34,233 nt of DNA from Limibacillus sp. (GTDB lineage: Bacteria; Pseudomonadota; Alphaproteobacteria; Kiloniellales; CECT-8803). Positions 518-33,742 of this stretch are shown one piece after another. A program made the position numbers and the translations under genes. Position 1 is the first letter of the stretch. The number at the start of each line of letters is the position of its first letter. The stretch is from positions 1 through 34,233 of the forward strand of contig JARRJC010000019.1 in NCBI GenBank assembly GCA_037379885.1. The letters run 5' to 3'. The notes under the pieces are model-generated. The model was not told the origin of the DNA, made no database searches, and worked only from the letters and a program-made list of their open reading frames with translations.

Positions 518-1573
518 CTATATTTTTCGGCAGGCCAGAACACGCGACAGGAAGGCGTGATCCAGCGATTCGACCCGGAACCCGGAGTCTTCGAAGAGCT
601 CCTGTAGATCGCTTTGGATGTAGTCGAGGTAGTAGGGCTCGTGAAAATGCCCCGGGAAGCGCCGCAAAAGCGCGTCGTAGCCCGGCCGGTCGCCGAGCTG
701 AAGGGAGTCGACCAGAAGGAAGAGCCCGCCCGGCTTCAGGATACGCGCGGCCTCCTCCGCCACTTGGCGGCGCACTTTCTTGGGCAGCTCGTGGAACAGG
801 TAGACGGCGCTGACCGCGTCCACGGAGCTTTCCGGCAGTCCGGTCTTCTCCGCCGCCGCCTCGCGCAGATCCGCCTTCCGCCAGGGCTTCAGCGTCTCGG
901 CGGCCTTTTCCAGATAGGGGCCGCTCAGGTCCAGCCCCGTAACCTGCAGGAGCGGGTAGTTCTGCTTCACGAAAGAAAGCCAGCGGGCCGTGCCCGTTCC
1001 CAGATCCACCAGGTGGCAGTCCCGGCTGCGCCGCCCGGCGAGGAAGCGCTGAAGCGGCACCAGCCCCTGACGCCGCATGGCGTCGCTGCCGCCGCCGAAC
1101 AGCACCTCGACCTGATGGTCGTAGACGGCGGCGGACTCTTCGCTCAGCCAGCCGCCGCTCTGGTAGTGGAAGTTCTGCAGGTAGTAGCGGGGATAGCGCC
1201 CGCGCCTCTCCGGCGTGAAGACCTCCTGATGGCGGCCCGCCAGCCGCAGCTCCTCGACCTTCGAGAACTCACGGAAGAAGCGGGGCGCGCCGCGCAGGGC
1301 CTCCAGCCCGCCGGAAAGCAGGTCGTGCGGCGGCCTGTAGATGCCCGCCTCGATGTTGGCCCAATCGCGCGCCATCAGGGCCTGTAGGTCGGCGAGGATG
1401 TCGTTGCGGCTCGGAAAGCGCTCGGGTTCCGCCCCTGCCTCTTCCACCGGCGTCTCCGGTTTCCTTTCCGCGGGCCTGGTCATCCGCTGGGACAAGAGGT
1501 ACTGGGACCAGTAGCCCGCGACGCGCGCGCCCTGGCCCAGGCGGTATAGGGTTCTGCCTAAAGGATCGCTCAT
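518..1573 (-). CDS. SAM-dependent class I methyltransferase with a long N-terminal extension
   Basis: A 351-residue predicted methyltransferase. The C-terminal half has the Rossmann-type SAM-binding fold: motif I reads HLVDLGTGTAR, an acidic motif II follows (VTGLDLSGPYL), and later come FHELP and LKPGGLFLLVD, typical of Methyltransf_11/25 proteins. The first ~165 residues belong to no domain I can name; they are rich in aromatic residues and contain RYYLQNFHYQSGGWLS. ATG 1573 is preferred over a TTG at 1609 because AAGG lies just upstream and the extra residues look non-coding. The gene is alone on its strand and divergent from pgk. The acceptor substrate is unknown. Confidence 0.8.
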   Translation of the reverse strand: MSDPLGRTLYRLGQGARVAGYWSQYLLSQRMTRPAERKPETPVEEAGAEPERFPSRNDILADLQALMARDWANIEAGIYRPPHDLLSGGLEALRGAPRFFREFSKVEELRLAGRHQEVFTPERRGRYPRYYLQNFHYQSGGWLSEESAAVYDHQVEVLFGGGSDAMRRQGLVPLQRFLAGRRSRDCHLVDLGTGTARWLSFVKQNYPLLQVTGLDLSGPYLEKAAETLKPWRKADLREAAAEKTGLPESSVDAVSAVYLFHELPKKVRRQVAEEAARILKPGGLFLLVDSLQLGDRPGYDALLRRFPGHFHEPYYLDYIQSDLQELFEDSGFRVESLDHAFLSRVLACRKI

Positions 1574-1620
1574 GTCCTTAAGGCTTGGCGCGGGACCGCG
1601 CGCTGTCAAGCGATAGCCCT

Positions 1621-5228: not shown

Positions 5229-6326
5229 TCACTCCGCGAAGCGCGAGGGCCTGAAGGGTTGGGCCAGTTCCAAAGGGTGGCCCTCCATGATCTCAGCGGC
5301 CAGGATGCGGGCGGCGAGCGGCGCCAGAGTGATGCCCGAATGCATCGCGGCCAGAAAGAGACCCTCAATCCCCGGCAGCCCGCCCAGGATCGGCAGACCG
5401 TCGCGCGGCATGGGCCGCTGGCCGATGGCAAAGCCGGAGAGCGCCAGTCCGTCCGACCGCTTGAGGCCCCGGATCAGCGCCTTTTCTGCCCGCGCGGCGA
5501 TGGCCGCGGGTCCGGTCTCTCGCTCGCTGTCGACGAAGTCCTCGGCGGCCAGAAGTTGGCGCGCCCCGGCCTGCCGGGCCTCGAAGTCCGGGCCGGAGAC
5601 GATGCCGCGCAATAGCGGCCGCGCCACATCGAAGCTCAGCCACATCGACGGCGACGCCTCCAGCGGCAGGTCCAGGCCTAGCTCCGCACAGAGCCGCACG
5701 GAACCCAGCCCCGCGGCGAGCACAACGCTGTCCGCTTCCAGCCAGCCCTGCTGAAGCTGCACGCCGGTGACGCGCCCGCCCTTGGTGCGGAGAGCTTCTA
5801 CCCTCTGTCCCGTCCGGATCACCGCGCCCTTTTCGGCCGCCGCGGCGACGAGCCCTTGGGTCACGGCCAGCGGAGCAAGCGCGCCCTCCTCGGCGGCGTA
5901 GACGGCGGTGCTCGGCGGGGCAGCGAGACCGGGCTCAAGCTGCGCTATCGCGCGGCGGTCCAAGAGGCTCACCGCTTGCCCCGCGCCCTTCAGCGCCTCG
6001 GCCTTCGCCGCCGTCGCTTCGGGATCGTTCTGCCAGGTCAAGGCGCCGCACCAATCGATGGCGAGGGCCGTGCCCACCTCACGCTGCACGTCACGCCAGG
6101 CCGGTATGGCCTCGCGCCTCAGCCGTCCCCAGGGTCCTTCGCCAGCTCCTTCGCCGGGCCCTGCGCCGACGCCGCTGGCGTTGATCCAGGCGAACGCCTT
6201 GCCGGTCACCCCGCCAGCAGGCTCCCCTTCCTCCAGCAGCAGCGTCTGCGCGCCGTCCACGGCCAGCCGGTAGGCCAAAGCCGCCCCGACGATCCCGCCG
6301 CCAACGATGATGATGTTCCGGGTCAC
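5229..6326 (-). CDS. FAD-dependent oxidoreductase, DAO (D-amino-acid oxidase-like) family
   Basis: A 365-residue flavoprotein. The N-terminus carries the dinucleotide fold IIIVGGGIVGAALA (residues 5-18) followed by LLLEEGEPAGGVTGKAFAW. Later come VVLAAGLGS and a C-terminal LFLAAMHSGITLAPLAARIL, as in DadA- and glycine-oxidase-like enzymes. It probably oxidises an amino acid or amine; the substrate is not readable. GTG 6326 is chosen because it sits directly before the FAD fold and has GAAGGA upstream; an upstream extension to 6470 is not protein-like. The gene is divergent from the LysR remnant at 6423-6560, which may be what is left of its former regulator or neighbour. Confidence 0.85.
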   Translation of the reverse strand: MTRNIIIVGGGIVGAALAYRLAVDGAQTLLLEEGEPAGGVTGKAFAWINASGVGAGPGEGAGEGPWGRLRREAIPAWRDVQREVGTALAIDWCGALTWQNDPEATAAKAEALKGAGQAVSLLDRRAIAQLEPGLAAPPSTAVYAAEEGALAPLAVTQGLVAAAAEKGAVIRTGQRVEALRTKGGRVTGVQLQQGWLEADSVVLAAGLGSVRLCAELGLDLPLEASPSMWLSFDVARPLLRGIVSGPDFEARQAGARQLLAAEDFVDSERETGPAAIAARAEKALIRGLKRSDGLALSGFAIGQRPMPRDGLPILGGLPGIEGLFLAAMHSGITLAPLAARILAAEIMEGHPLELAQPFRPSRFAE

Positions 6327-6422
6327 GCGGGTCCTTCGTCCTTCTTTGCCGCTTTCAGGATCGGCGACAGGGTACAGACTCGGCGGGCAGGTTTCACCCC
6401 AGCGCGGCGTCTCACGGCCCGG

Positions 6423-6560
6423 GAAAAGCCGCTGCCGCCCCTGGATTCCAAACTCTGGCTGCTGACCCACGCCGACCTGCGCAGCGCCCCCAGAATCCGC
6501 GCCTGCCTCGACTTGCTCTACGAGGAACTGAAGCGCGCAAGGGGAAGGTTGATGCCCTAA
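6423..6560 (+). pseudogene. 3' remnant of a LysR-family regulator gene
   Basis: The last 45 codons of this plus-strand frame read PLPPLDSKLWLLTHADLR, then RIRACLDLLYEEL, and end in TAA. This matches the C-terminus of LysR-type regulators, where LWLLTHPDLR, Arg-x-Arg-Ala and a final helix are standard. There is no DNA-binding domain and no room for one: about 100 bases upstream the DNA belongs to the divergent oxidoreductase gene, and the frame upstream of 6423 is not LysR-like. The stop overlaps the convergent Nudix stop codon by three bases. I read it as the leftover of a deleted regulator gene. Confidence 0.7.
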
Positions 6561-23718: not shown

Positions 23719-25479
23719 ATGCCAGCGCAGACCACCCGACGCAGACTCTCGGCCATTTTGGCCGCGGACCTCGTTGGCTACAGCCGCCTGACGGAAGTGA
23801 ACGAGACAGGCGCTTACAGTCTGGTGCGGTCCCTGCGCGACGAGGTTATCGAACCCAAGATAGGAGAGCATCAAGGCCGTCTGGTGAAGACCATGGGCGA
23901 CGGTTTCCTGGTGGAGTTCGGCTCCGCCACAGATGCGGTCTCCTGCGCGCTGGCGCTCCAGGAAGCGCTGCCCTCCTTCAATGAGAGCCGGGCCTCGGCG
24001 CTGCAACTGCGGATCGGCGTCAACCTGGGCGAGGTGATCGTCGACGGCGACGACATCTTCGGGGAGGGGGTCAACATCGCCGCCCGCCTGGAAGCCCTGG
24101 CCGAGCCGGAGACCATCTGCCTTTCCGAGGAGGTGCATCACCTGGTGCAAAAGCGCATCGAGGGCCGTTTCGAGCCGCTCGGCGAACTCCGCTTGAAGAA
24201 CATCGAACAGCCGGTCGTCGCCTACCGCCTGCGCGCGGCGACCCAGGCGGGCGCCAAAAGCACTGCCTCGCCGGAGCCCGCGAGCAGCCGCCCGGCCATC
24301 GCTGTGCTCCCCTTCGACAACATGAGCGGCGACCCGGAGCAGGAGTACTTCTCCGACGGCCTGACCGAGGACATCATCACGGCGCTGTCGCTCTGGCGCT
24401 CCTTTCCCGTGATCGCCCGCAACTCCAGCTTCACCTACAAGGGGCGTTCGGTACGCGCGCAGGACGTGGCGCGGGACCTGGGCGTGCGCTACCTGCTGGA
24501 AGGCAGCGTGCGGCAGGCTGGAAAACGCATCCGTGTCACCGCCCAGCTCATCAACGCGGAGACCGGCCACCATGTGTGGGCCGAGAAGTTCGACCGGGAG
24601 CTGGCCGACATCTTCGATCTTCAGGACGAGATCACGCACCGCATCGCCGCCACCCTGGTGCCGGAGCTGGAACAGGCGGAGACGACGCTGACGCGCGCCA
24701 AACGGCCCGGCGATCTCACCGCCTGGGACTGTTATCTGCGCGGCATGAGTTTCTTTCACGAAGAGACCGGTGAGGCGATCGGCGAGGCGATTGCGATGTT
24801 CGAGGCCGCCGTGGAGGCCGATCCCGACTATGTGGACGCCTGGGCGCTGCTCGGCTGGTCCTACGCCAAGCAGGTCAGCTTCCGCAGCGCTGCCGATCCG
24901 GAAGAAACGATGAAGCGGGCGTTCCAGGCCGGACGGCGGGCCGTGGCGCTCGATCCCTCCTCCGCGGTGGCGCACATGAGCCTCGGCACGGTTCACATCT
25001 GGGCGGAGGAAACCGAGCAGGGGCTGGCGGAAGCCCAGCGCGCCCTGGAGCTGAACCCGAACTTCGCCTATGCCGCCATGGCCGTCGGCAACCGCCTGGA
25101 CCTGGTGGGGCGCAGCGAACAGGGGATCCGGCAGATGGAGGAAGCCCTGCATCTGAATCCCCGCGACCCGGTCCGCTGGCGCTACATGTTCTATCTGTCG
25201 CGCGCGCAGCTCTCGGTCGGCGATCTGGAAGCCGCCGACCTGTGGAGCGCCAAGGCCCTTTCGATCCGGCCCGAATTGCCCGAAGCCTTGTTCCGGCACG
25301 CGCTGGTCCAGGCGCATCTCGGCCGTCTGGAGGAGGCGAAACGCGACCTGCTGCGCCTGAAGGCAAGCGATCCCGCCTTGTTCGAGCGCATGAAGGACTG
25401 GCGGCCCTATTCGGATGAAAGCCGCAACGCCAAGCTGATGGCGCCGCTGCGCGAGAACGGCCTGATGGATAGCCTCTAG
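23719..25479 (+). CDS. Class III adenylate cyclase with TolB-like and TPR domains
   Basis: A 586-residue signalling protein. Residues about 8-165 are a class III cyclase: metal-binding Asp17 in ILAADLVGYSRL and Asp61 in KTMGDGFLVEF, adenine-specifying Lys57, and GEGVNIAARLEALAEP with the Asn/Arg that stabilise the transition state, so it is probably active and makes cAMP. Residues about 195-320 are a TolB-like N-terminal domain (IAVLPFDNMSGDPEQEYFSD). TPR repeats fill about 360-560 (for example AHMSLGTVHIWAEETEQGL). No membrane helix is seen. The ATG at 23719 has GGGGAGAGG upstream. It lies between secB and dnaQ and ends tail-to-tail with dnaQ. Confidence 0.92.
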   Translation: MPAQTTRRRLSAILAADLVGYSRLTEVNETGAYSLVRSLRDEVIEPKIGEHQGRLVKTMGDGFLVEFGSATDAVSCALALQEALPSFNESRASALQLRIGVNLGEVIVDGDDIFGEGVNIAARLEALAEPETICLSEEVHHLVQKRIEGRFEPLGELRLKNIEQPVVAYRLRAATQAGAKSTASPEPASSRPAIAVLPFDNMSGDPEQEYFSDGLTEDIITALSLWRSFPVIARNSSFTYKGRSVRAQDVARDLGVRYLLEGSVRQAGKRIRVTAQLINAETGHHVWAEKFDRELADIFDLQDEITHRIAATLVPELEQAETTLTRAKRPGDLTAWDCYLRGMSFFHEETGEAIGEAIAMFEAAVEADPDYVDAWALLGWSYAKQVSFRSAADPEETMKRAFQAGRRAVALDPSSAVAHMSLGTVHIWAEETEQGLAEAQRALELNPNFAYAAMAVGNRLDLVGRSEQGIRQMEEALHLNPRDPVRWRYMFYLSRAQLSVGDLEAADLWSAKALSIRPELPEALFRHALVQAHLGRLEEAKRDLLRLKASDPALFERMKDWRPYSDESRNAKLMAPLRENGLMDSL

Positions 25480-26156
25480 TCGTCCGACAGCCAGATCGGG
25501 TCGGAAATGCCCTTCAGCATCTTGGCGTGGGCTTCCAGTTCCTCGGCGCTGGGGGCGTGCGGGCGCGGTTCGCGGTAGCGCCGCTCCGCTTTCACGTTCG
25601 AGCCGCCGCCCTGCTTGCCCGAGCCGGCCAGTTGCAGGCCGGGCTGCTGGCCGCCGCGCAGTTCCAGATAGACCTCCGCCAGAAGCTGGCAGTCGAGCAG
25701 CGCGCCGTGAAAGGTGCGCTCCGAATTGTCGATGCCGAAACGCCGGCAGAGCGCATCCAGGCTGGCCGGGGCGCCCGGATAGCGTTGCCGCGCCATGGCG
25801 AGCGTGTCGACGGCGCGGGTCATGGGCAGCGCGGCCTTGTCGATCCAGCCCAGCTCCGCGTTCAGGAATCGCATGTCGAACTCGGCGTTGTGGATCACCA
25901 GCTTGTCCTCGCCGATGAACTCAAGAAAATCGTCGGCGACCTCGGCGAAGACCGGGTGGTCCTTCAGGAACTCCTCGGAGAGCCCGTGCACCTCGAAGGC
26001 GCCCTGGGGCATGTCCCGCTCGGGATTGATGTAGCGCCGCCAGTGGCGGCCGGTCTGCACGTGGTTGACCAGCTCCAGGCAGGCGATCTCGACGATGCGG
26101 TGGCCCTCGGCCGGCTCGAAGCCGGTGGTTTCGGTGTCCAGAACCAGTTCGCGCAT
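25476..26156 (-). CDS. dnaQ: DNA polymerase III epsilon subunit (3'-5' proofreading exonuclease)
   Basis: A 226-residue proofreading exonuclease. Exo I reads LVLDTETTG (Asp7, Glu9), Exo II HNAEFDMRFLN and Exo III HGALLDCQLLAEVYLEL, so the DEDDh active site is complete. The polar C-terminal tail should contact the polymerase alpha subunit. ATG 26156 lies two bases after the coaE stop; the longer upstream frame is not conserved in character. Its stop codon shares the sequence CTAG with the stop of the adenylate cyclase gene on the other strand. Confidence 0.95.
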   Translation of the reverse strand: MRELVLDTETTGFEPAEGHRIVEIACLELVNHVQTGRHWRRYINPERDMPQGAFEVHGLSEEFLKDHPVFAEVADDFLEFIGEDKLVIHNAEFDMRFLNAELGWIDKAALPMTRAVDTLAMARQRYPGAPASLDALCRRFGIDNSERTFHGALLDCQLLAEVYLELRGGQQPGLQLAGSGKQGGGSNVKAERRYREPRPHAPSAEELEAHAKMLKGISDPIWLSDD

Positions 26157-26158
26157 CC

Positions 26159-26812
26159 CTAGCTTTCCTGCCTGCTGCTGCTGTGAAAGGGCGGCTGGCG
26201 GCGCGGCGGCCAATGGCGCGGCTCCAACCCTTCAGCAAGTGTGACGATGCGGCGGAGTCGCTTCAAGGTCTGGGCCTTGGAGAGGCCGTTCTGCAGGAGG
26301 AAATCGGCGCGGCGGCGCTTCTCGGCGTCGGGCGTCTGCTGCGCCAGGATCTGCTGGAAGCGCTCTTCGGTCATGCCGGGCCGGGCCAGCACGCGCTGGC
26401 GCTGGATCTGGGGCGGCGCGGTCACCGCCAGAACGGCGTCCACACGCCGCTCGGCCCCGGTCTCATAAAGCAGCGGGATGTCCAGTACCACCAGCGGCGC
26501 GCGGCGGCGGGCGTGACGGCGCAGGAAGCGCTCGGTCTCCTCCCGCACCAAGGGGTGCAGGATCGCTTCCAGGCGGCGCAAGGCCTCGGGCTTGCCAAAG
26601 ACGGCGGTGCCCAGCTTCTTGCGATCGACCGCGCCGTCCTGGACCACGCCGGGAAAGGCGGCCTCGATGGCGGGCACGGCACGCCCGTTCTTGGCCATCA
26701 GCCTGTGGACCGTGGCGTCGGCGTCGTGCAACGGCAGGCCGAGCCGCCGGAGCATCCCCGCGACGGTCGATTTTCCCATGCCAATGGAGCCGGTGAGACC
26801 CAGGATCACCAT
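26159..26812 (-). CDS. coaE: Dephospho-CoA kinase
   Basis: Last step of coenzyme A synthesis. The 217-residue protein starts MVILGLTGSIGMGKSTVAG with the P-loop, then LPLHDADATVHRL, and has VVLDIPLLYETGAE and ERFQQILAQQTPDAEKRRRAD, all diagnostic. ATG 26812 follows the aroE stop by four bases. The C-terminal 20 residues are a short, Arg/Ser/His-rich extension. Confidence 0.95.
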   Translation of the reverse strand: MVILGLTGSIGMGKSTVAGMLRRLGLPLHDADATVHRLMAKNGRAVPAIEAAFPGVVQDGAVDRKKLGTAVFGKPEALRRLEAILHPLVREETERFLRRHARRRAPLVVLDIPLLYETGAERRVDAVLAVTAPPQIQRQRVLARPGMTEERFQQILAQQTPDAEKRRRADFLLQNGLSKAQTLKRLRRIVTLAEGLEPRHWPPRRQPPFHSSSRQES

Positions 26813-26816
26813 GCCG

Positions 26817-27656
26817 TCAGTCCCCGAGGACGAAGGCGCGCAGTTCCGCCGTGACCTCGGGCTCCCGGCCGAACCAGGCGGCAAAGCCGGGCCGGGCCTG
26901 ATGCAAGAGCATGCCCAGGCCGTCCACGGCCGGGTTGCCCCGCGCCCTGGACGCGGCCAGAAGCGGCGTCTCAAGCGGGCTGTAGACGATGTCGGTGACC
27001 AGCGCGTCCTCTGGCAAGGCATCAAGAGCGATTTCCAGGGCCGGCTGCCCGGTCATGCCCAGCGAGGTGGCGTTGACCAGAAGGGCAGCTCCCGCCAAGG
27101 CTTCGTCGCGGCTTTCCCATTCCAGCGCCTCGACAGTCGGCTCGAAGATTTCGGCCAGACTTTCCGCACGGTGGAAGGAGCGGTTGACCAGGCGGATCTC
27201 CGGCGCACCGGCGTCGAGCAGTCCGACGATCAGAGCGCGGGCCGCGCCCCCGGCGCCCAGGATCACCGCCGGACCGCTGTCCGCGCGCCAGTCCGGCGCC
27301 CCGGCCTTCAGGTTCTCGATGAAGCCGAAGGCGTCGCTGTTGGAACCCAGGAGACTGCCGTCCGGCTCCACGATCACGGTGTTGACCGCCCCGACCCGCT
27401 CGGCCAGCGGGTCCAGGCGGTCGCAGATCTCCATGGCCGCTTCCTTGTGCGGGATGGTGAGGTTGCAGCCGGCGAAGCCCAGCTTCGGCAGGGCGCGGAG
27501 CGAGGCCTCCAGATCGTCGGGCTTTACCGGCAGCGGCAGATAGGCGCCGTCGATGCCGTAACGCTCCAGCCACCAGCCGTGCAGGCGCGGCGACTTGGAA
27601 TGGCCGACCGGCCAGCCCATCACCCCCGCCATCTTGGCTTTTCCCGTCAGGATCAT
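26817..27656 (-). CDS. aroE: Shikimate dehydrogenase
   Basis: NADP-dependent enzyme of the shikimate pathway, 279 residues. It has GWPVGHSKSPRLHGWWL (shikimate-binding serines), NLTIPHKEAA with the catalytic Lys, the NADP loop ILGAGGAARAL, and LVNATSLGM. The usual NTDGxG motif reads NSDAFGF here, a mild change. Its ATG overlaps the maf stop by four bases. Confidence 0.95.
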   Translation of the reverse strand: MILTGKAKMAGVMGWPVGHSKSPRLHGWWLERYGIDGAYLPLPVKPDDLEASLRALPKLGFAGCNLTIPHKEAAMEICDRLDPLAERVGAVNTVIVEPDGSLLGSNSDAFGFIENLKAGAPDWRADSGPAVILGAGGAARALIVGLLDAGAPEIRLVNRSFHRAESLAEIFEPTVEALEWESRDEALAGAALLVNATSLGMTGQPALEIALDALPEDALVTDIVYSPLETPLLAASRARGNPAVDGLGMLLHQARPGFAAWFGREPEVTAELRAFVLGD

Positions 27657-28249
27657 CGCGGCACCACTCCCTGGTTTCGCAGGAAGTCTAACAGCGCGAG
27701 CAGCGGCAGTCCCAGGATCGTGAAGTAATCTCCCTGAACGCGGGCAAAGAGCTGTGCGCCCCGTCCTTCGAGCTGATAGGCCCCCACCGAGGTCAGGGCC
27801 GCCTCGCCGACCGCCTCCAGATAGGAATCCAGGAAGGCGTCGCCGAGCTCGCGCACCTGGAGCCGCGCGCCCTCGTTATGGTGCCAGAGCCGCTGTCCGC
27901 CCTGGACGACGCAGACCGAGGCCAGGAGGCTGTGGGTCTTGCCGGAGAGCGCCTGGAGCTGCGCGCGGGCCTCCTCCAAGGTCGCCGGCTTGTCGAACCA
28001 GCGGCCCTCGCACTCCAGCATCTGATCGGCGCCGATCACCAGCGCCTCGGGCTTGCGGCGCGAGATATGGAGCGCCTTCAGCTCCGCCAGCGTTTCGGCG
28101 ACGGCGGCGGCGGAGGCCTGTTCGGCGCGCAGGGCCTCCTTGACTTCGGCTTCATCGACCGGTGCTGCCATCACCTCGAAGGGCACGCCCGCGTTCTCCA
28201 GAAGGCTGCGCCGCACCTGGCTGGCGGAGGCGAGGATCACCTCCTTCAT
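27653..28249 (-). CDS. maf: Maf-family nucleotide pyrophosphatase
   Basis: A 198-residue house-cleaning pyrophosphatase that hydrolyses non-canonical or modified nucleoside triphosphates. The N-terminal LASASQVRRSLLENAG carries the Maf signature, VIGADQML the catalytic Asp, FDKPATLEEARAQLQALSG the KP motif and GAYQLEGRGAQLF the C-terminal motif. GADQ rather than GADT places it nearer the YceF (7-methyl-GTP) type than the YhdE type, though this is a loose guide. Starts inside the end of the DUF299 gene (ATGA overlap). Confidence 0.92.
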   Translation of the reverse strand: MKEVILASASQVRRSLLENAGVPFEVMAAPVDEAEVKEALRAEQASAAAVAETLAELKALHISRRKPEALVIGADQMLECEGRWFDKPATLEEARAQLQALSGKTHSLLASVCVVQGGQRLWHHNEGARLQVRELGDAFLDSYLEAVGEAALTSVGAYQLEGRGAQLFARVQGDYFTILGLPLLALLDFLRNQGVVPR

Positions 28250-29091
28250 CGGCCCTGCGCCTCGCGGTGCGCGGCGTAGAGCGCCATGATCGCCGCCGCC
28301 GTCTCCTCGATGGAGCGGCGCGAGACGTCGATGACGGGCCAGCCGTGCTTGGTGTAGAGACGCCGTGCGTTCGTGACCTCTTCGCGCACCGCCTCGGGGT
28401 CGATGTAGTGGCTCTCCCGGCTGGTGTCCTCGTCGACGCGCAGACGGCTTCGGCGTACCTGGACAAGCTGCTGCGGGTCCTTGGTCAGGCCGACGATCAG
28501 CGTGTCCTTCAACTGAAAGAGCGCATCGGGCAGCGGAATGCCGGGGACGACCGGGACGTTGGCCGCCCGGATCCCGCGGTTGGCGAGATAGATGCAGGTC
28601 GGCGTCTTGGAGGTGCGCGAGACGCCCAGGACGATCAGGTCGGCGTCGCGCAGGCGTTCGGTCTGCTGACCGTCGTCGTTGGATAGCGCGAAGTTCACTG
28701 CCTCGATCCGCTCGAAGTACTCGGCGTCCAGGGCGTGTTGCAGGCCGGGCCGGCCCCGGATCGTGACGCCGAAGTAGGCGGCCAGTGTGTGGATCACCGG
28801 GTCCAGGACAGGGATGCAGGGCACGCCCAGCTCGCGGCAGCCCTCGACCAGCCGGGCGCGCAAGGAATCGTTGATGATGGTCATGATCACCGGGCCCGGG
28901 TGCTGGCGAATGCCTTCGACCACGCGCTCCATCTGGCTGGGCGTGCGCACCAGGCTCCAGACGTGCTCGCGCGGCTCCACCCCTTCGAACTGCACCAGGC
29001 AGGCGCGAGCGACGGAATTGAGCGTCTCGCCGGTGGCATCGGACACCAGATGCAGATGGGGCGCCGTGGTCTGGGTCTTCTCGCCTTCCAA
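28246..29091 (-). CDS. Pyruvate,phosphate dikinase / PEP synthase regulatory protein (DUF299)
   Basis: A 281-residue bifunctional kinase/phosphorylase that switches pyruvate,phosphate dikinase or PEP synthase on and off. LHLVSDATGETLNSVARA opens the domain, the P-loop reads LGVSRTSKTPT, and GLTKDPQQLVQVRRSRL follows. TTG 29091 is chosen: AGGAGG at 29100-29105 lies eight bases upstream and the length equals the family norm. A GTG at 29148 would extend into the DnaA box. In Caulobacter and Rickettsia this family borders the replication origin, as here. Confidence 0.93.
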   Translation of the reverse strand: MEGEKTQTTAPHLHLVSDATGETLNSVARACLVQFEGVEPREHVWSLVRTPSQMERVVEGIRQHPGPVIMTIINDSLRARLVEGCRELGVPCIPVLDPVIHTLAAYFGVTIRGRPGLQHALDAEYFERIEAVNFALSNDDGQQTERLRDADLIVLGVSRTSKTPTCIYLANRGIRAANVPVVPGIPLPDALFQLKDTLIVGLTKDPQQLVQVRRSRLRVDEDTSRESHYIDPEAVREEVTNARRLYTKHGWPVIDVSRRSIEETAAAIMALYAAHREAQGR

Positions 29092-29140
29092 GAACAAGCC
29101 CTCCTGAACAACTGGGTAATAGCCTGCATAACCGGGGGTG

Positions 29141-29149
29141 TTATGCACA
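29141..29149 (+). promoter_or_regulatory. DnaA box (perfect)
   Basis: TTATGCACA matches TTATNCACA at every position. A reverse-facing partial copy (29123-29131, 7/9) forms an inverted pair with it around a seven-base GC-rich centre. Confidence 0.75.
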
Positions 29150-29330
29150 GGGGCAAAAAAGCAGCCCCAGATGAGGGACTCCTCCTCCCCCTTGCCACAC
29201 AGGTGCGAGGCGTCTTTCCCGGCCTCTTGATAATCGCTGCATCGTGGCAGGCCAAGCGATGCTTGTTACCGATTCTCTCTTTTTCAGTTTCGTGAGACCC
29301 GATAAGGCGTCAAAGGTCACCATCCCCAGC

Positions 29331-29339
29331 TTATCCCCA
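29331..29339 (+). promoter_or_regulatory. DnaA box (8 of 9)
   Basis: TTATCCCCA differs from TTATCCACA at one position. It follows a related ATCCCCAG copy by 11 bases, one helical turn, as in arrays of weak DnaA sites. Confidence 0.6.
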
Positions 29340-29375
29340 GAAGGGACCCTGTCCTCCTCTCTCCCCCTCCCGCCC

Positions 29376-29384
29376 TGTGCGTAA
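29376..29384 (-). promoter_or_regulatory. DnaA box (8 of 9), minus strand
   Basis: The plus strand reads TGTGCGTAA, so the minus strand reads TTACGCACA, one mismatch from TTATNCACA. Confidence 0.55.
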
Positions 29385-29434
29385 GCGCGGGAGGAAAAGG
29401 AATTACCGATTCACACAGGCCCTACTGCAACAAC

Positions 29435-29459
29435 ATCCTTTCTTTTTTATAAAAAGGAT
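29435..29459. other. AT-rich inverted repeat, possible unwinding element
   Basis: ATCCTTT (29435-29441) and AAAGGAT (29453-29459) flank an all A/T centre apart from one C; the stretch 29439-29455 is the most AT-rich of the origin gap. It lies between the DnaA boxes and hemE. It might also supply a -10 element (TATAAA at 29448-29453) for hemE. Confidence 0.5.
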
Positions 29460-29512
29460 TCTTTGTTGGTGGGAGCCAAGACCTACCGCGACGAGGGACG
29501 ATCAGAACCGTC

Positions 29513-30556
29513 ATGAACACACCGGCTTCCGGCAAGGACAAGCTCATGCTGCGCGCCCTGCGCGGCGAGATCACTGAACGCCCGCCCGTTTGGCTGATGC
29601 GCCAGGCTGGCCGCTATCTTCCCGAATACCGGGAGACCCGCAAGCAGGCGGGCGGCTTCCTGGAGCTCTGCTATAGGCCCGAGCTGGCGGTGGAGGTGAC
29701 GTTGCAGCCGATCCGGCGCTACGGCTTCGACGCTTCGATCCTGTTCTCCGATATCCTCGTGGTCCCGCACGGCTTGGGCCAGGAGGTCTGGTTCGAGGAG
29801 GGCGAGGGTCCGAAGCTGGCGCCGTTGGAGCGGCCCGATGCCCTGGACGCGCTCAGGCTGGAAGGCATGGTGGAGCGGCTGGCGCCGGTGTACGAGACGG
29901 TCCGGGGTCTTTCAGCGGCACTACCGCCTGAGACCACGCTGATCGGCTTCTCCGGCGCGCCCTGGACGCTCGCCACCTACATGCTGGAGGGCGGCACCTC
30001 CAAGCAGTTCGTGACCTGCAAGCGCTGGGCGCTGGCCGAGCCGGAGGCCTTTGGCCGTTTGATCGACCTGCTTGAGCAGGCTGTCGTCGAGCATCTGAGC
30101 GCGCAGGTCGCCGCCGGGGCCGAGGTCTTGCAGATCTTCGATTCCTGGGCGGGCGCGCTTCCGGTGCGGGCGCTGCGGCAGTGGTCGCTGGAACCCTTGA
30201 AGCGGATCGTCGCCGCCTTGAAGGCGCGTCATCCTGAGGTCCCGGTGATCCTCTTTCCGCGCGGCGCCGGGCTACTCTATCTGGATTTTGCCGCCGAGAG
30301 CGGCGCCGAGGGCCTCTCCCTCGACAGCAACCTGCCGCCGGCCTGGGCCGCCGAGGCGCTTTCGCCGCAGGTGACGCTGCAAGGCAACCTGGACCCGCTC
30401 TATCTGGTGGCGGGTGGCTCCGCCATGGATGCGGCGGCCGAGGAGATCCTGAGCGCTTTCGAACAACGCCCTTTCATCTTCAATCTCGGGCACGGCGTCG
30501 TGCCGCAAACCCCGCCGGAGAACGTGGAGCGTCTTTTGAAGGTGATCCGGGGGTGA
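29513..30556 (+). CDS. hemE: Uroporphyrinogen decarboxylase
   Basis: Decarboxylates uroporphyrinogen III to coproporphyrinogen III in haem synthesis. The 347-residue protein has RPPVWLMRQAGRYLPEYRET near the start, the conserved YGFDASILFSDILVVPHGLG with the catalytic Asp, GFSGAPWTLATYMLEGGTS, and FNLGHGVVPQTPPENV near the end. The ribosome site before ATG 29513 is weak (GAGGGA is too far upstream). First gene of the rightward hemE-hemH-hemJ-rho block beside the origin. Confidence 0.96.
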   Translation: MNTPASGKDKLMLRALRGEITERPPVWLMRQAGRYLPEYRETRKQAGGFLELCYRPELAVEVTLQPIRRYGFDASILFSDILVVPHGLGQEVWFEEGEGPKLAPLERPDALDALRLEGMVERLAPVYETVRGLSAALPPETTLIGFSGAPWTLATYMLEGGTSKQFVTCKRWALAEPEAFGRLIDLLEQAVVEHLSAQVAAGAEVLQIFDSWAGALPVRALRQWSLEPLKRIVAALKARHPEVPVILFPRGAGLLYLDFAAESGAEGLSLDSNLPPAWAAEALSPQVTLQGNLDPLYLVAGGSAMDAAAEEILSAFEQRPFIFNLGHGVVPQTPPENVERLLKVIRG

Positions 30557-30661: not shown

Positions 30662-31717
30662 ATGTCCGGCAAGACCTCCAGCAAGTATTCCCGCCAGGAC
30701 TGGGCGAAGGAGCATCCCGATCTTCCCAGCCCGAAGATCGGCGTTCTGCTGTTGAACCTCGGCACGCCGGAGGGCACGGACTATCCGGCCATGCGCCGCT
30801 ATCTGTCCGAGTTCCTGTCGGACCGGCGGGTGGTGGAGCTGACGCCCTGGCTCTGGCAGCCGATCCTGCAGCTGGTGATCCTCTCGACCCGGCCCAAGCG
30901 CAGCGGCGCCGCCTACAAGGAGATCTGGAACGAGGAGCTGGACGAAAGCCCCTTGAAGACCATCACCCGCGGGCAATCCGAAGGTCTGGCCCAGCGCTTC
31001 GCCAAGCTCTATCCCCAGGTCATGGTGGACTGGGCCATGCGCTACGGCCAGCCCGCCGTGGGCGACCGGATCGAAGCGCTGCAGAAGGCCGGCTGCGACC
31101 GCATCCTGCTGCTGCCGCTCTATCCCCACTACAGCGCTGCCACCACGGCGACGGCCTGCGATCAGGCGTTCCGGCGGTTGATGACGCTGCGCTGGCAGCC
31201 GAGCCTCAGGGTTGCGCCCGCCTACTACGACGATCCGGCCTTCATCAACGCGCTGGCGGGCTCGATCACCGAAAGCCTCGCAGGCCTCGATTGGGAGCCG
31301 GAGGTGACCATCGCCTCCTACCACGGCCTTCCCAAGGAGAACCTGGAGAAGGGCGATCCCTATCACTGCCACTGCCTGAAGACCACGCGGCTGCTGCGCG
31401 AGCGCCTCGGCTGGGACGGGCGGCGGCTGATCACCACCTTCCAGTCGCGCTTCGGGCCCAAGGAGTGGCTGCAGCCCTTCACCGACGAAACGGTCAAACG
31501 CTTGGCGGGAGAGGGCGTGAAGCGCCTCGCCATCGTCTCCCCCGGCTTTTCCGCCGACTGCGTGGAGACGCTGGAGGAGATCAACATCGGCGTGCGCGAG
31601 TCCTTCCTGGAAGCGGGCGGAGAGGCCTTCCACTACATCCCCTGCCTCAACGACAGCCCCGGCCACCTCGATTTCCTGACCGGCTACATCGAAAAGGAAC
31701 TGGGCGGCTGGCTCTAG
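30662..31717 (+). CDS. hemH: Ferrochelatase
   Basis: Inserts iron into protoporphyrin IX, the last step of haem synthesis. The 351-residue protein has IGVLLLNLGTPEGTDYPAM, LLPLYPHYSAATT, the catalytic His221 in IASYHGLPKE, and Glu302 in GFSADCVETLEEI. A four-Cys iron-sulphur tail is absent, as in most Gram-negative enzymes; CHC at about 236-238 is not that motif. ATG 30662 lies 105 bases after hemE. Confidence 0.96.
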   Translation: MSGKTSSKYSRQDWAKEHPDLPSPKIGVLLLNLGTPEGTDYPAMRRYLSEFLSDRRVVELTPWLWQPILQLVILSTRPKRSGAAYKEIWNEELDESPLKTITRGQSEGLAQRFAKLYPQVMVDWAMRYGQPAVGDRIEALQKAGCDRILLLPLYPHYSAATTATACDQAFRRLMTLRWQPSLRVAPAYYDDPAFINALAGSITESLAGLDWEPEVTIASYHGLPKENLEKGDPYHCHCLKTTRLLRERLGWDGRRLITTFQSRFGPKEWLQPFTDETVKRLAGEGVKRLAIVSPGFSADCVETLEEINIGVRESFLEAGGEAFHYIPCLNDSPGHLDFLTGYIEKELGGWL

Positions 31718-31791
31718 GTTTCCGTGCTTGCGGAGGCTGGGTTTTTTGAGCAGTTTGGCGTTCTGGAAGAGGCTGTTTGGGCGTACAGACG

Positions 31792-32235
31792 ATGCAAGGC
31801 TTTTTGAGTGACGGCTATCTCTGGTTCAAGGCGCTGCACGTTATCTCCGTGATCGCCTGGATGGCGGGGCTGTTCTACCTGCCGCGCCTTTACGTCTATC
31901 ACTGCCAGGTGGCGCCGGGCTCCGAGCAGTCCGAGACCTTCAAGGTGATGGAGCGCCGGCTGCTGAGAGCCATCATGAATCCCTCCATGATCGCCAGCTG
32001 GGTCTTCGGCGGGCTGCTGATCGCCGCGCTCCAGCCCTGGAGCGAAGGCTGGTTCCACGCCAAGCTTCTGTTGGTCATCGCCATGACCGTGGCCCACATG
32101 CAGCAGGCCAAGTGGCGCAAGGACTTCGAGCGGGACGAGAACCGGCGGCCCGAGCGCTTCTACCGCCTGATGAACGAGGTGCCCACGGTGCTGATGGTGC
32201 TGATCGTCATCCTGGTGATCGTGAAACCTTTTTGA
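31792..32235 (+). CDS. hemJ: Protoporphyrinogen IX oxidase HemJ
   Basis: Membrane enzyme that oxidises protoporphyrinogen IX, replacing HemG or HemY in most alphaproteobacteria; it makes the substrate of HemH. The 147-residue protein has four hydrophobic helices, with [20 protein letters not shown] (haem-ligand His) first, PRLYVYH next, and [20 protein letters not shown] later. ATG 31792 matches the family start but lacks a ribosome site; TTG 31777, five codons upstream, has GGAAGAGG four bases before it and may be the real start. Confidence 0.92.
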
Positions 32236-32263
32236 CGCTTTGGCCTTTCTTTGTTCTCGCCTG

Positions 32264-32292
32264 TTGACGAGGGGCCGCCCTTGCGCTAACTA
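32264..32292 (+). promoter_or_regulatory. Promoter of rho
   Basis: TTGACG at 32264-32269, a 17-base spacer and TAACTA at 32287-32292: the best sigma-70 match in the window. It lies 29 bases after hemJ and predicts an untranslated leader of about 187 bases before the rho ATG. Confidence 0.65.
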
Positions 32293-32298
32293 CTGCGT

Positions 32299-32485
32299 CA
32301 ATCCTTTCGAAAGCCGCGTGACGAAACCACTGGGCGCGAGCGCCTTTCCGCCATACGAGAGCGCTAAGCCATACGAGAGCGCTAAGATCGACAAGAGGCC
32401 CTTGCCAACAGGACCCCTTTCGGCGCCGAAGCCGGAAACCATCCCCGAATTTTCCCCACCTTCTTCCGAGACGCCAGAAACCGCC
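32299..32485 (+). promoter_or_regulatory. rho mRNA leader, possibly autoregulatory
   Basis: Between the predicted transcription start and the rho ATG. The last 85 bases (32401-32485) contain 36 C and 16 G, the C-rich, G-poor composition of Rho-utilisation sites. In E. coli Rho represses itself by ending transcription in its leader. The frame is open through the leader in phase with rho but I do not read it as coding, since family members start at MNLQELK. Confidence 0.45.
32351..32386 (+). repeat. Perfect tandem duplication of 18 bases in the rho leader
   Basis: CCATACGAGAGCGCTAAG occurs at 32351-32368 and again at 32369-32386 without a mismatch. Identity suggests a recent duplication or slippage. 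Being a multiple of three, it leaves the in-phase frame open. Confidence 0.9.

Positions 32486-33742
<1,257 letters not shown>

Follow-up and report, generated by a model that had tools for sequence, protein, structure and literature searches.

A predicted chromosomal origin of replication beside hemE and its candidate strand-opening element

The window analysed in this study is the complete contig C19 (34,233 bp) of a draft genome of 3.1 Mb in 128 contigs, and it contains a non-coding gap between two divergent genes, a kinase/pyrophosphorylase gene of the PF03618 family, which we take to be the family named PPSR or DUF299, and hemE (Table 1). The outward orientation of the genes on both sides, which had been noted in a sequence-only reading of this DNA, was borne out. 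On the PPSR side the gap is followed by maf, aroE, coaE and dnaQ, and on the hemE side by hemH, a UPF0093 gene that is presumably hemJ, and rho. The length of 421 bases given in the same reading holds when the TTG at 29091 is taken as the start of the DUF299 gene, a choice that was made from its spacing to a well-spaced AGGAGG Shine-Dalgarno sequence, but the gap would be shorter if the alternative mechanical GTG start at 29148 is used.

Table 1. Features of the hemE locus, with positions counted from the first base of the window.
Feature	Position	Strand	Basis
dnaQ-coaE-aroE-maf side of the origin cluster	25476..28249	-	Domain matches
Kinase/pyrophosphorylase gene (PF03618), left boundary	28246..29091	-	Domain match, E 3e-91; start read from sequence
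Predicted oriC, gap between DUF299/PPSR gene and hemE	29092..29512	.	Gene calls, boxes, profile, synteny, stability
DnaA box TTATGCACA, 0 mismatches	29141..29149	+	Consensus scan
GANTC site (others at 29271, 29408, 29457)	29177..29181	.	Motif scan
DnaA box TTATCCCCA, 1 mismatch, overlaps second ATCCCCAG copy	29331..29339	+	Consensus scan
DnaA box TTACGCACA, 1 mismatch	29376..29384	-	Consensus scan
Stretch matched by the unwinding-element profile	29400..29462	+	E 5e-6; sole match in the draft genome at E<=1
Weak DnaA box CGATTCACA, 2 mismatches, anchors the putative unwinding element, overlaps GATTC (GANTC)	29407..29415	+	Scan
GC-rich spacer CAGGCC	29416..29421	+	Read from sequence
Trinucleotide array, CTA CTG CAA CAA CAT on the + strand	29422..29436	-	Read from sequence; relatives' gaps
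Candidate AT-rich duplex unwinding element, with palindrome at 29444-29455 and GATTC at 29457	29438..29467	.	Stability scan
hemE (PF01208), right boundary	29513..30556	+	Domain match, E 8e-122
hemH, UPF0093, rho side of the origin cluster	30662..33742	+	Domain matches; order kept in G001

DnaA boxes were scored against the consensus TTATNCACA. The gap contains one perfect box, three boxes at no more than one mismatch and eight at no more than two, whereas the mean counts in 1000 dinucleotide shuffles were 0.003, 0.14 and 2.06, and the observed counts were reached by 3, 0 and 1 of the 1000 shuffles, respectively. Seven boxes at no more than one mismatch were found in the whole 34-kb window, three of which lie within the gap. 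The three boxes with at least eight of nine matching bases described previously (one perfect at 29141 and two 8/9 at 29331 and 29376) were recovered, as were the pair spaced by 11 bases (ATCCCCAG at 29322-29329 and 29333-29340) and the AT-rich inverted repeat, the palindrome TTTTTATAAAAA, but the three 7/9 boxes of that description have to be raised to five, located at 29123 (-), 29225 (-), 29407 (+) and in an overlapping palindromic pair at 29444 (-) and 29447 (+). The second copy of ATCCCCAG is part of a box variant, TTATCCCC, that occurs 34 times in 25 of 31 order-level gaps including the window (shuffle mean 0.57); in the same set, which is composed of 28 gaps from same-order genomes, the window among them, and three loci picked by name, ATCCCCAG occurs 11 times (shuffle mean 0.62) and TTATCCAC 16 times (0.20).

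The experimentally mapped origin of Caulobacter lies between hemE and COG1806, that is DUF299, and the Rickettsia arrangement is identical (PMC1914354), so the position of both origins beside hemE, given in the earlier reading, is confirmed in print. The gap shares its boundary genes, DnaA boxes and AT-rich DNA with the C. crescentus Cori and the R. prowazekii origin, and its size is similar to that of the Rickettsia gaps, 383-395 bp among the table rows listed (PMC1914354). Three features of the hemE/COG1806 type are present: the gap is intergenic between hemE and COG1806 (DUF299), it holds a cluster of DnaA boxes above chance, and it is enriched in AT, with a GC content of 0.55 versus 0.61-0.71 in 2-kb windows.

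Judged by the names of its best hemE matches, the window is alphaproteobacterial. In order to place the locus among other genomes, we collected 87 hemE loci, of which 55 come from an 80-locus set, 30 from a second set that includes the window, and two are stretches; 25 loci from L058 on, mostly with gamma- or betaproteobacterial names and with a few alphaproteobacteria such as L061, L063 and L076, were left out of the 87. The divergent order of PPSR, gap and hemE is found in 76 of the 87 loci, the window's own counted, and no PPSR was found upstream of hemE in the other 11, three of which have less than 600 bp of upstream sequence. Removal of two near-duplicates left 74 gaps, with a mean of 2.8 boxes at no more than one mismatch versus 0.33 in shuffles.

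A likely strand-opening element, absent from the earlier reading, was located at 29407-29467, where a DnaA box is followed by a GC-rich spacer, then by a trinucleotide array and finally by AT-rich DNA. A common block recurs close to hemE in many of the gaps and is made up of AATCCCC(A/G), GATTCACAG, a spacer rich in GC, an array of C(T/A)A units and a stretch rich in AT. The version found in the window consists of GATTCACA (29408-29415), CAGGCC, the array and the AT-rich stretch, and by nearest-neighbour energies no other 30 bp in the window are less stable than the last of these. The minus strand of the array, the one expected to be captured by DnaA, reads 5'-ATG TTG TTG CAG TAG-3'. The array of the window scores 8/10, a score attained by 8% of the shuffles of its own gap, and it is therefore convincing through its relatives and not alone; five consecutive C.A triplets with a score of 9/10 or more are found on the hemE-sense strand in 19 of the 74 gaps and on the opposite strand in none. 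We also considered a mirror-image partner array beyond the AT-rich element, as in a symmetric opening, and rejected it, since the longest inverted repeat was 5.6 versus 5.2 in shuffles and the T.G triplets gave 4.0 versus 3.8.

The part order of the element is that of a known system in Bacillus subtilis, and so is its strand sense, a statement that rests partly on the direction of the B. subtilis box as we presume it. The basal unwinding system of B. subtilis (DnaA-boxes 6/7) is composed of a DnaA box, a GC-rich spacer, which is a 5-mer, a trinucleotide repeat and AT-rich DNA (PMC8287927, PMC6669920, PMC10316083). Differences are seen in the trios, of which the first two in the window have the required middle A, whereas the next three are TTG, TTG and ATG, and in the protein, since the DnaA of the window's genome has Tyr in place of Asn187. 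We applied the B. subtilis rule in a simple rendering that omits the screening of the paper (a box, a spacer of 0-16 bp and at least three 3'-NAN-5' trios), and it gave only two in-register trios following the 29407 box; the rule is matched elsewhere in the gap, and it is permissive, being matched by 55 of the 74 gaps versus ~37 of 74 base-shuffled ones. Membership of the strict B. subtilis type was rejected for this reason, and we do not file the element there. The kind of origin is one already known from Caulobacter, whereas the strand-opening element is conserved but departs from the textbook sequence.

We built a profile of the element from 29 relatives, with the window excluded from training. 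Over ~2 Mb of stretches it matched two sites outside the training set, 29400-29461 in the window (E 2e-5) and the gap beside hemE in G069 (E 0.007), together with three training sites and one chance-level match, and a sequence-only profile run over the 3.1-Mb draft gave a single match at E<=1, the one on C19 listed in Table 1. All 148 first-look candidates were scored in the window's genome, but only 150 in most of the other genomes. The element was matched in 18 of 20 genomes, with no match in G074 and G096, and among the candidates scored the best match lies just upstream of hemE in all 18. Four of these 18 genomes belong to the training set, G003 has a block much like a training block, and no 20-mer of any training block is present in the element of the remaining 13, among which is the window's own genome.

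Origins of the hemE type do not generally carry the element, since no match at E<=1 was obtained next to hemE in 39 of 45 further non-training hemE loci, mostly Rhizobiales/Hyphomicrobiales by name, and the Rhizobiales gap tails that we inspected are mostly without the trinucleotide array. Eight of the Rhizobiales gaps (L025, L027, L029, L041, L042, L049, L051 and L055) carry another conserved string near hemE, which is AATCCTTGATAGTCACAGACTCTAAGAAATAGAA-like, and lack the array. Matches beside hemE were obtained in the other six of the 45 loci. Three of these, L016, L017 and L044, are loci in which the search for an upstream PPSR gene found none, so the element appears to remain with hemE where the opposite boundary is altered.

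The cumulative GC skew of the window is flat, ranging from -90 to +49, with a maximum and not a minimum at 28,912 and no turn at the gap, an outcome that counts strongly against nothing but gives no support. For relatives, the skew was taken from samples of complete or long contigs. In G001, a genome of the same family, the skew minimum within 250-410 kb of contig C1 falls at 329,938, in the gap upstream of hemE where the element matches at 329,925-329,994, and among 19 sampled stretches of this contig the skew is negative in seven of nine on the hemE side and positive in all 10 on the PPSR side. The single contig of G015 has its minimum within 290-510 kb at 373,925, which is 20 bp away from where the hemE match begins, with the element at 373,782-373,855; 20 stretches round the chromosome are mostly negative before this point and positive after it, with exceptions at 3.75 and 4.0 Mb. 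In G069 the turn is seen roughly: the skew is clearly negative until the 5 kb holding the hemE start, about zero to ~3,645 kb and positive to ~3,715 kb; the trough is flat, with its exact minimum ~12 kb further on than the hemE start. No clear skew turn was seen in G004, whose GC content is 70%.

The neighbourhood is also retained in G001, where 29 of 33 queried window proteins were found with their order kept from pgk to rho, at 325.8-360.7 kb. Here dnaQ, aroE and maf are collinear, and the missing match for coaE carries no meaning, as the query was out of frame. A class III adenylate/guanylate cyclase with TPR repeats (23719-25479, +) stands between secB and dnaQ in the otherwise collinear cluster; it has no counterpart in the 160 kb of G001 searched, and the DAO-type FAD oxidoreductase at 5229-6470 (-) and the methyltransferase at 518-1609 (-) gave no match in the same 160 kb.

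With regard to replication control, Cori contains five sites for CtrA and one for IHF (PMC1914354), whereas no site of either kind was found in the gap at up to one mismatch to the consensus. The gap contains no TTAA at all, and its best approach to the TTAA-N7-TTAA site of a Caulobacter-type CtrA-controlled origin has two mismatches, at 29105. The sequence-only reading was right that a full CtrA site is missing, and only partly right in concluding from this that control would differ, because a CtrA homologue that is 67% identical to the Caulobacter sequence is encoded on contig C31 and the absence of the site is ordinary here: a perfect TTAA-N7-TTAA occurs in two of the 31 order-level gaps, the window included, and in eight of 74 overall, and sites at up to one mismatch occur in 10 of 31 and 24 of 74, leaving 21 of the 31 without any.

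We also scanned for GANTC, which we take to be the CcrM site. The four sites in the gap are not significant alone, since 109 of 1000 shuffles attain this number, but the 74 gaps together contain 275 sites versus a shuffle mean of 154, an enrichment of ~1.8-fold. A protein with a RAMA domain (PF18755), presumably a part of CcrM, is encoded on contig C17, and among 14 control genomes PF18755 was found only in Caulobacter; PF18284, the family tried before it, had no match in Caulobacter and is uninformative. As GANTC is enriched across these origins and one of the sites overlaps the anchoring box, control of the origin by methylation is possible.

We conclude that the gap is very probably the chromosomal oriC of this genome, of the hemE/COG1806 type, as had been proposed. 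This assignment, which we make with high confidence, is a prediction by comparison and draws on the anatomy of the gap, its conservation, the single occurrence of the element genome-wide, synteny and the skew minimum of the relatives G001 and G015, to which G069 roughly conforms. Since oriC adjoins dnaA in many bacteria, the gap could instead be merely a divergent promoter regulated by DnaA, with the origin lying at dnaA, and such a placement has a parallel in the alphaproteobacterium R. centenum, for which no strong skew inflection was described and the dnaA/dnaN area was suggested (PMC2890560). We consider this highly improbable for the present genome: the 14.6 kb holding dnaA on contig C9 contain no box at up to one mismatch, only three scattered boxes were found in the 34.6 kb of C9 read, and the origin profile has no match on C9. 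The relatives argue in the same direction, as the skew of G015 turns at hemE and not at dnaA, which lies at 498 kb, 124 kb from the minimum, and the skew of G069 leaves its negative arm at hemE, with dnaA 137 kb from the hemE start on the assumption of a circular contig. An origin beside dnaA, which the earlier reading had named as the outcome that would contradict it, was not borne out. A conserved regulatory region with no part in replication would fit a gap that lies between divergent genes and has to contain their promoters, but it would leave the box density, the skew minima of the relatives and an element with one site in the genome, located beside hemE in 18 of 18 matching genomes, unaccounted for, and we regard it as improbable in the extreme. 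The assignment of the gap as oriC gives a fragmented draft genome with uninformative GC skew a location for its origin, and the element profile, which finds the same place in non-training relatives, may help where skew fails.

By analogy with B. subtilis, opening of the origin could proceed from the binding of ATP-DnaA to the boxes at 29141, 29331 and 29376 and to the weak box at 29407, from which DnaA would be guided across the short GC-rich spacer to reach the trinucleotides of 29422-29436. On this array it would capture the minus strand, with its 5'-TTG/TAG-3' repeats, as a filament that would melt the adjoining AT-rich DNA at 29438-29467, and the helicase would be loaded into this melted stretch on the hemE side. 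The origin could also be opened in the manner of E. coli, with DnaA held at the boxes recruiting single-stranded TTGT/TTATT and no trio filament being formed. TTGT/TTATT motifs are required by E. coli DnaA in the unwinding element, on its T-rich strand (PMC5742627), and the minus strand of the array, 5'-TTGTTG..., contains TTGT, which makes recruitment of this kind a serious alternative; furthermore, the E. coli origin scores weakly for the B. subtilis system, so modes of opening can differ between lineages (PMC8287927). The array differs from E. coli oriC, however, in following immediately on a box and its GC-rich spacer, in keeping a trinucleotide register that mixes CTA with CAA, and in the lack of an IHF site in the gap at up to one mismatch, and we judge E. 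coli-like opening to be possible, if rather doubtful.

To characterize the array further, we analysed the middle bases of its trios in 30 origins that were picked from the 74 gaps for an in-place C.A run of at least 8/10 near hemE, the middle base being ignored in the choice. The 118 C.A trios of these origins, the window included, have on the plus strand 81 A, 25 T, 12 C and no G as the middle base, versus background shares of 32% A, 10% T, 33% C and 24% G in the rest of the same gaps, and on the captured strand the middle base of triplets 1-5 is mostly T, then A, then G. The set holds near relatives, the arrays of L004 and L096 being identical. A hand count over 38 trios of 11 non-training origins (G002, G005, G007, G008, G011, G014, G018, G088, G098, G099 and G100), from which G069, whose array was not caught in register, and G003, which is near the training set, were left out, gave 17 A, 16 T, 4 C and 1 G, and because the preference for A is weaker here, the dominance of TTG is partly a sampling effect.

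In B. subtilis the middle base of the trio is A, which can be replaced by C, whereas T or G impair opening, and the amine of this base contacts Asn187 (PMC10721633). Alignment of the DnaA of the window's genome to that of B. subtilis (8btg) places Tyr at Asn187, Leu at Ile193 and Lys at Arg202, with Ile190 kept. The Asn187 position is occupied by Tyr in 22 and by Phe in three of the 25 DnaA proteins read from named alphaproteobacteria or from genomes that belong to the class of the window, and by Ala, Gln or Arg in all eight gammaproteobacterial ones; 16 of 49 dnaA loci could not be read by the pattern and were dropped from this survey, and L290 was left out. The association between residue 187 and the array amounts to one clade-level correlation and not to proof.

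In light of an array that mixes the canonical DnaA-trio TAG with TTG, we put forward tentatively, and at somewhat less than even likelihood, that the trio code has changed in this lineage, such that DnaA would read 5'-TTG-3' interchangeably with canonical 5'-TAG-3'; the flanking T and G would be kept, the middle base would be mostly T or A, and Tyr or Phe would stand at the Asn187 position. As T is disfavoured at the middle position in B. subtilis (PMC10721633), the reading rule would have changed together with the protein, and the single-strand motif read by DnaA would have diverged along with the residue that reads it. A possible divergence of this motif is raised in general terms in PMC8287927 and PMC10721633, and no description of a changed trio code was found in the titles and abstract openings of the DnaA-trio papers listed. 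In the gaps of L004, L096, L101 and L110, a second B. subtilis-like string, TTACTATTACT, is present in the AT-rich part, past the CAA array.
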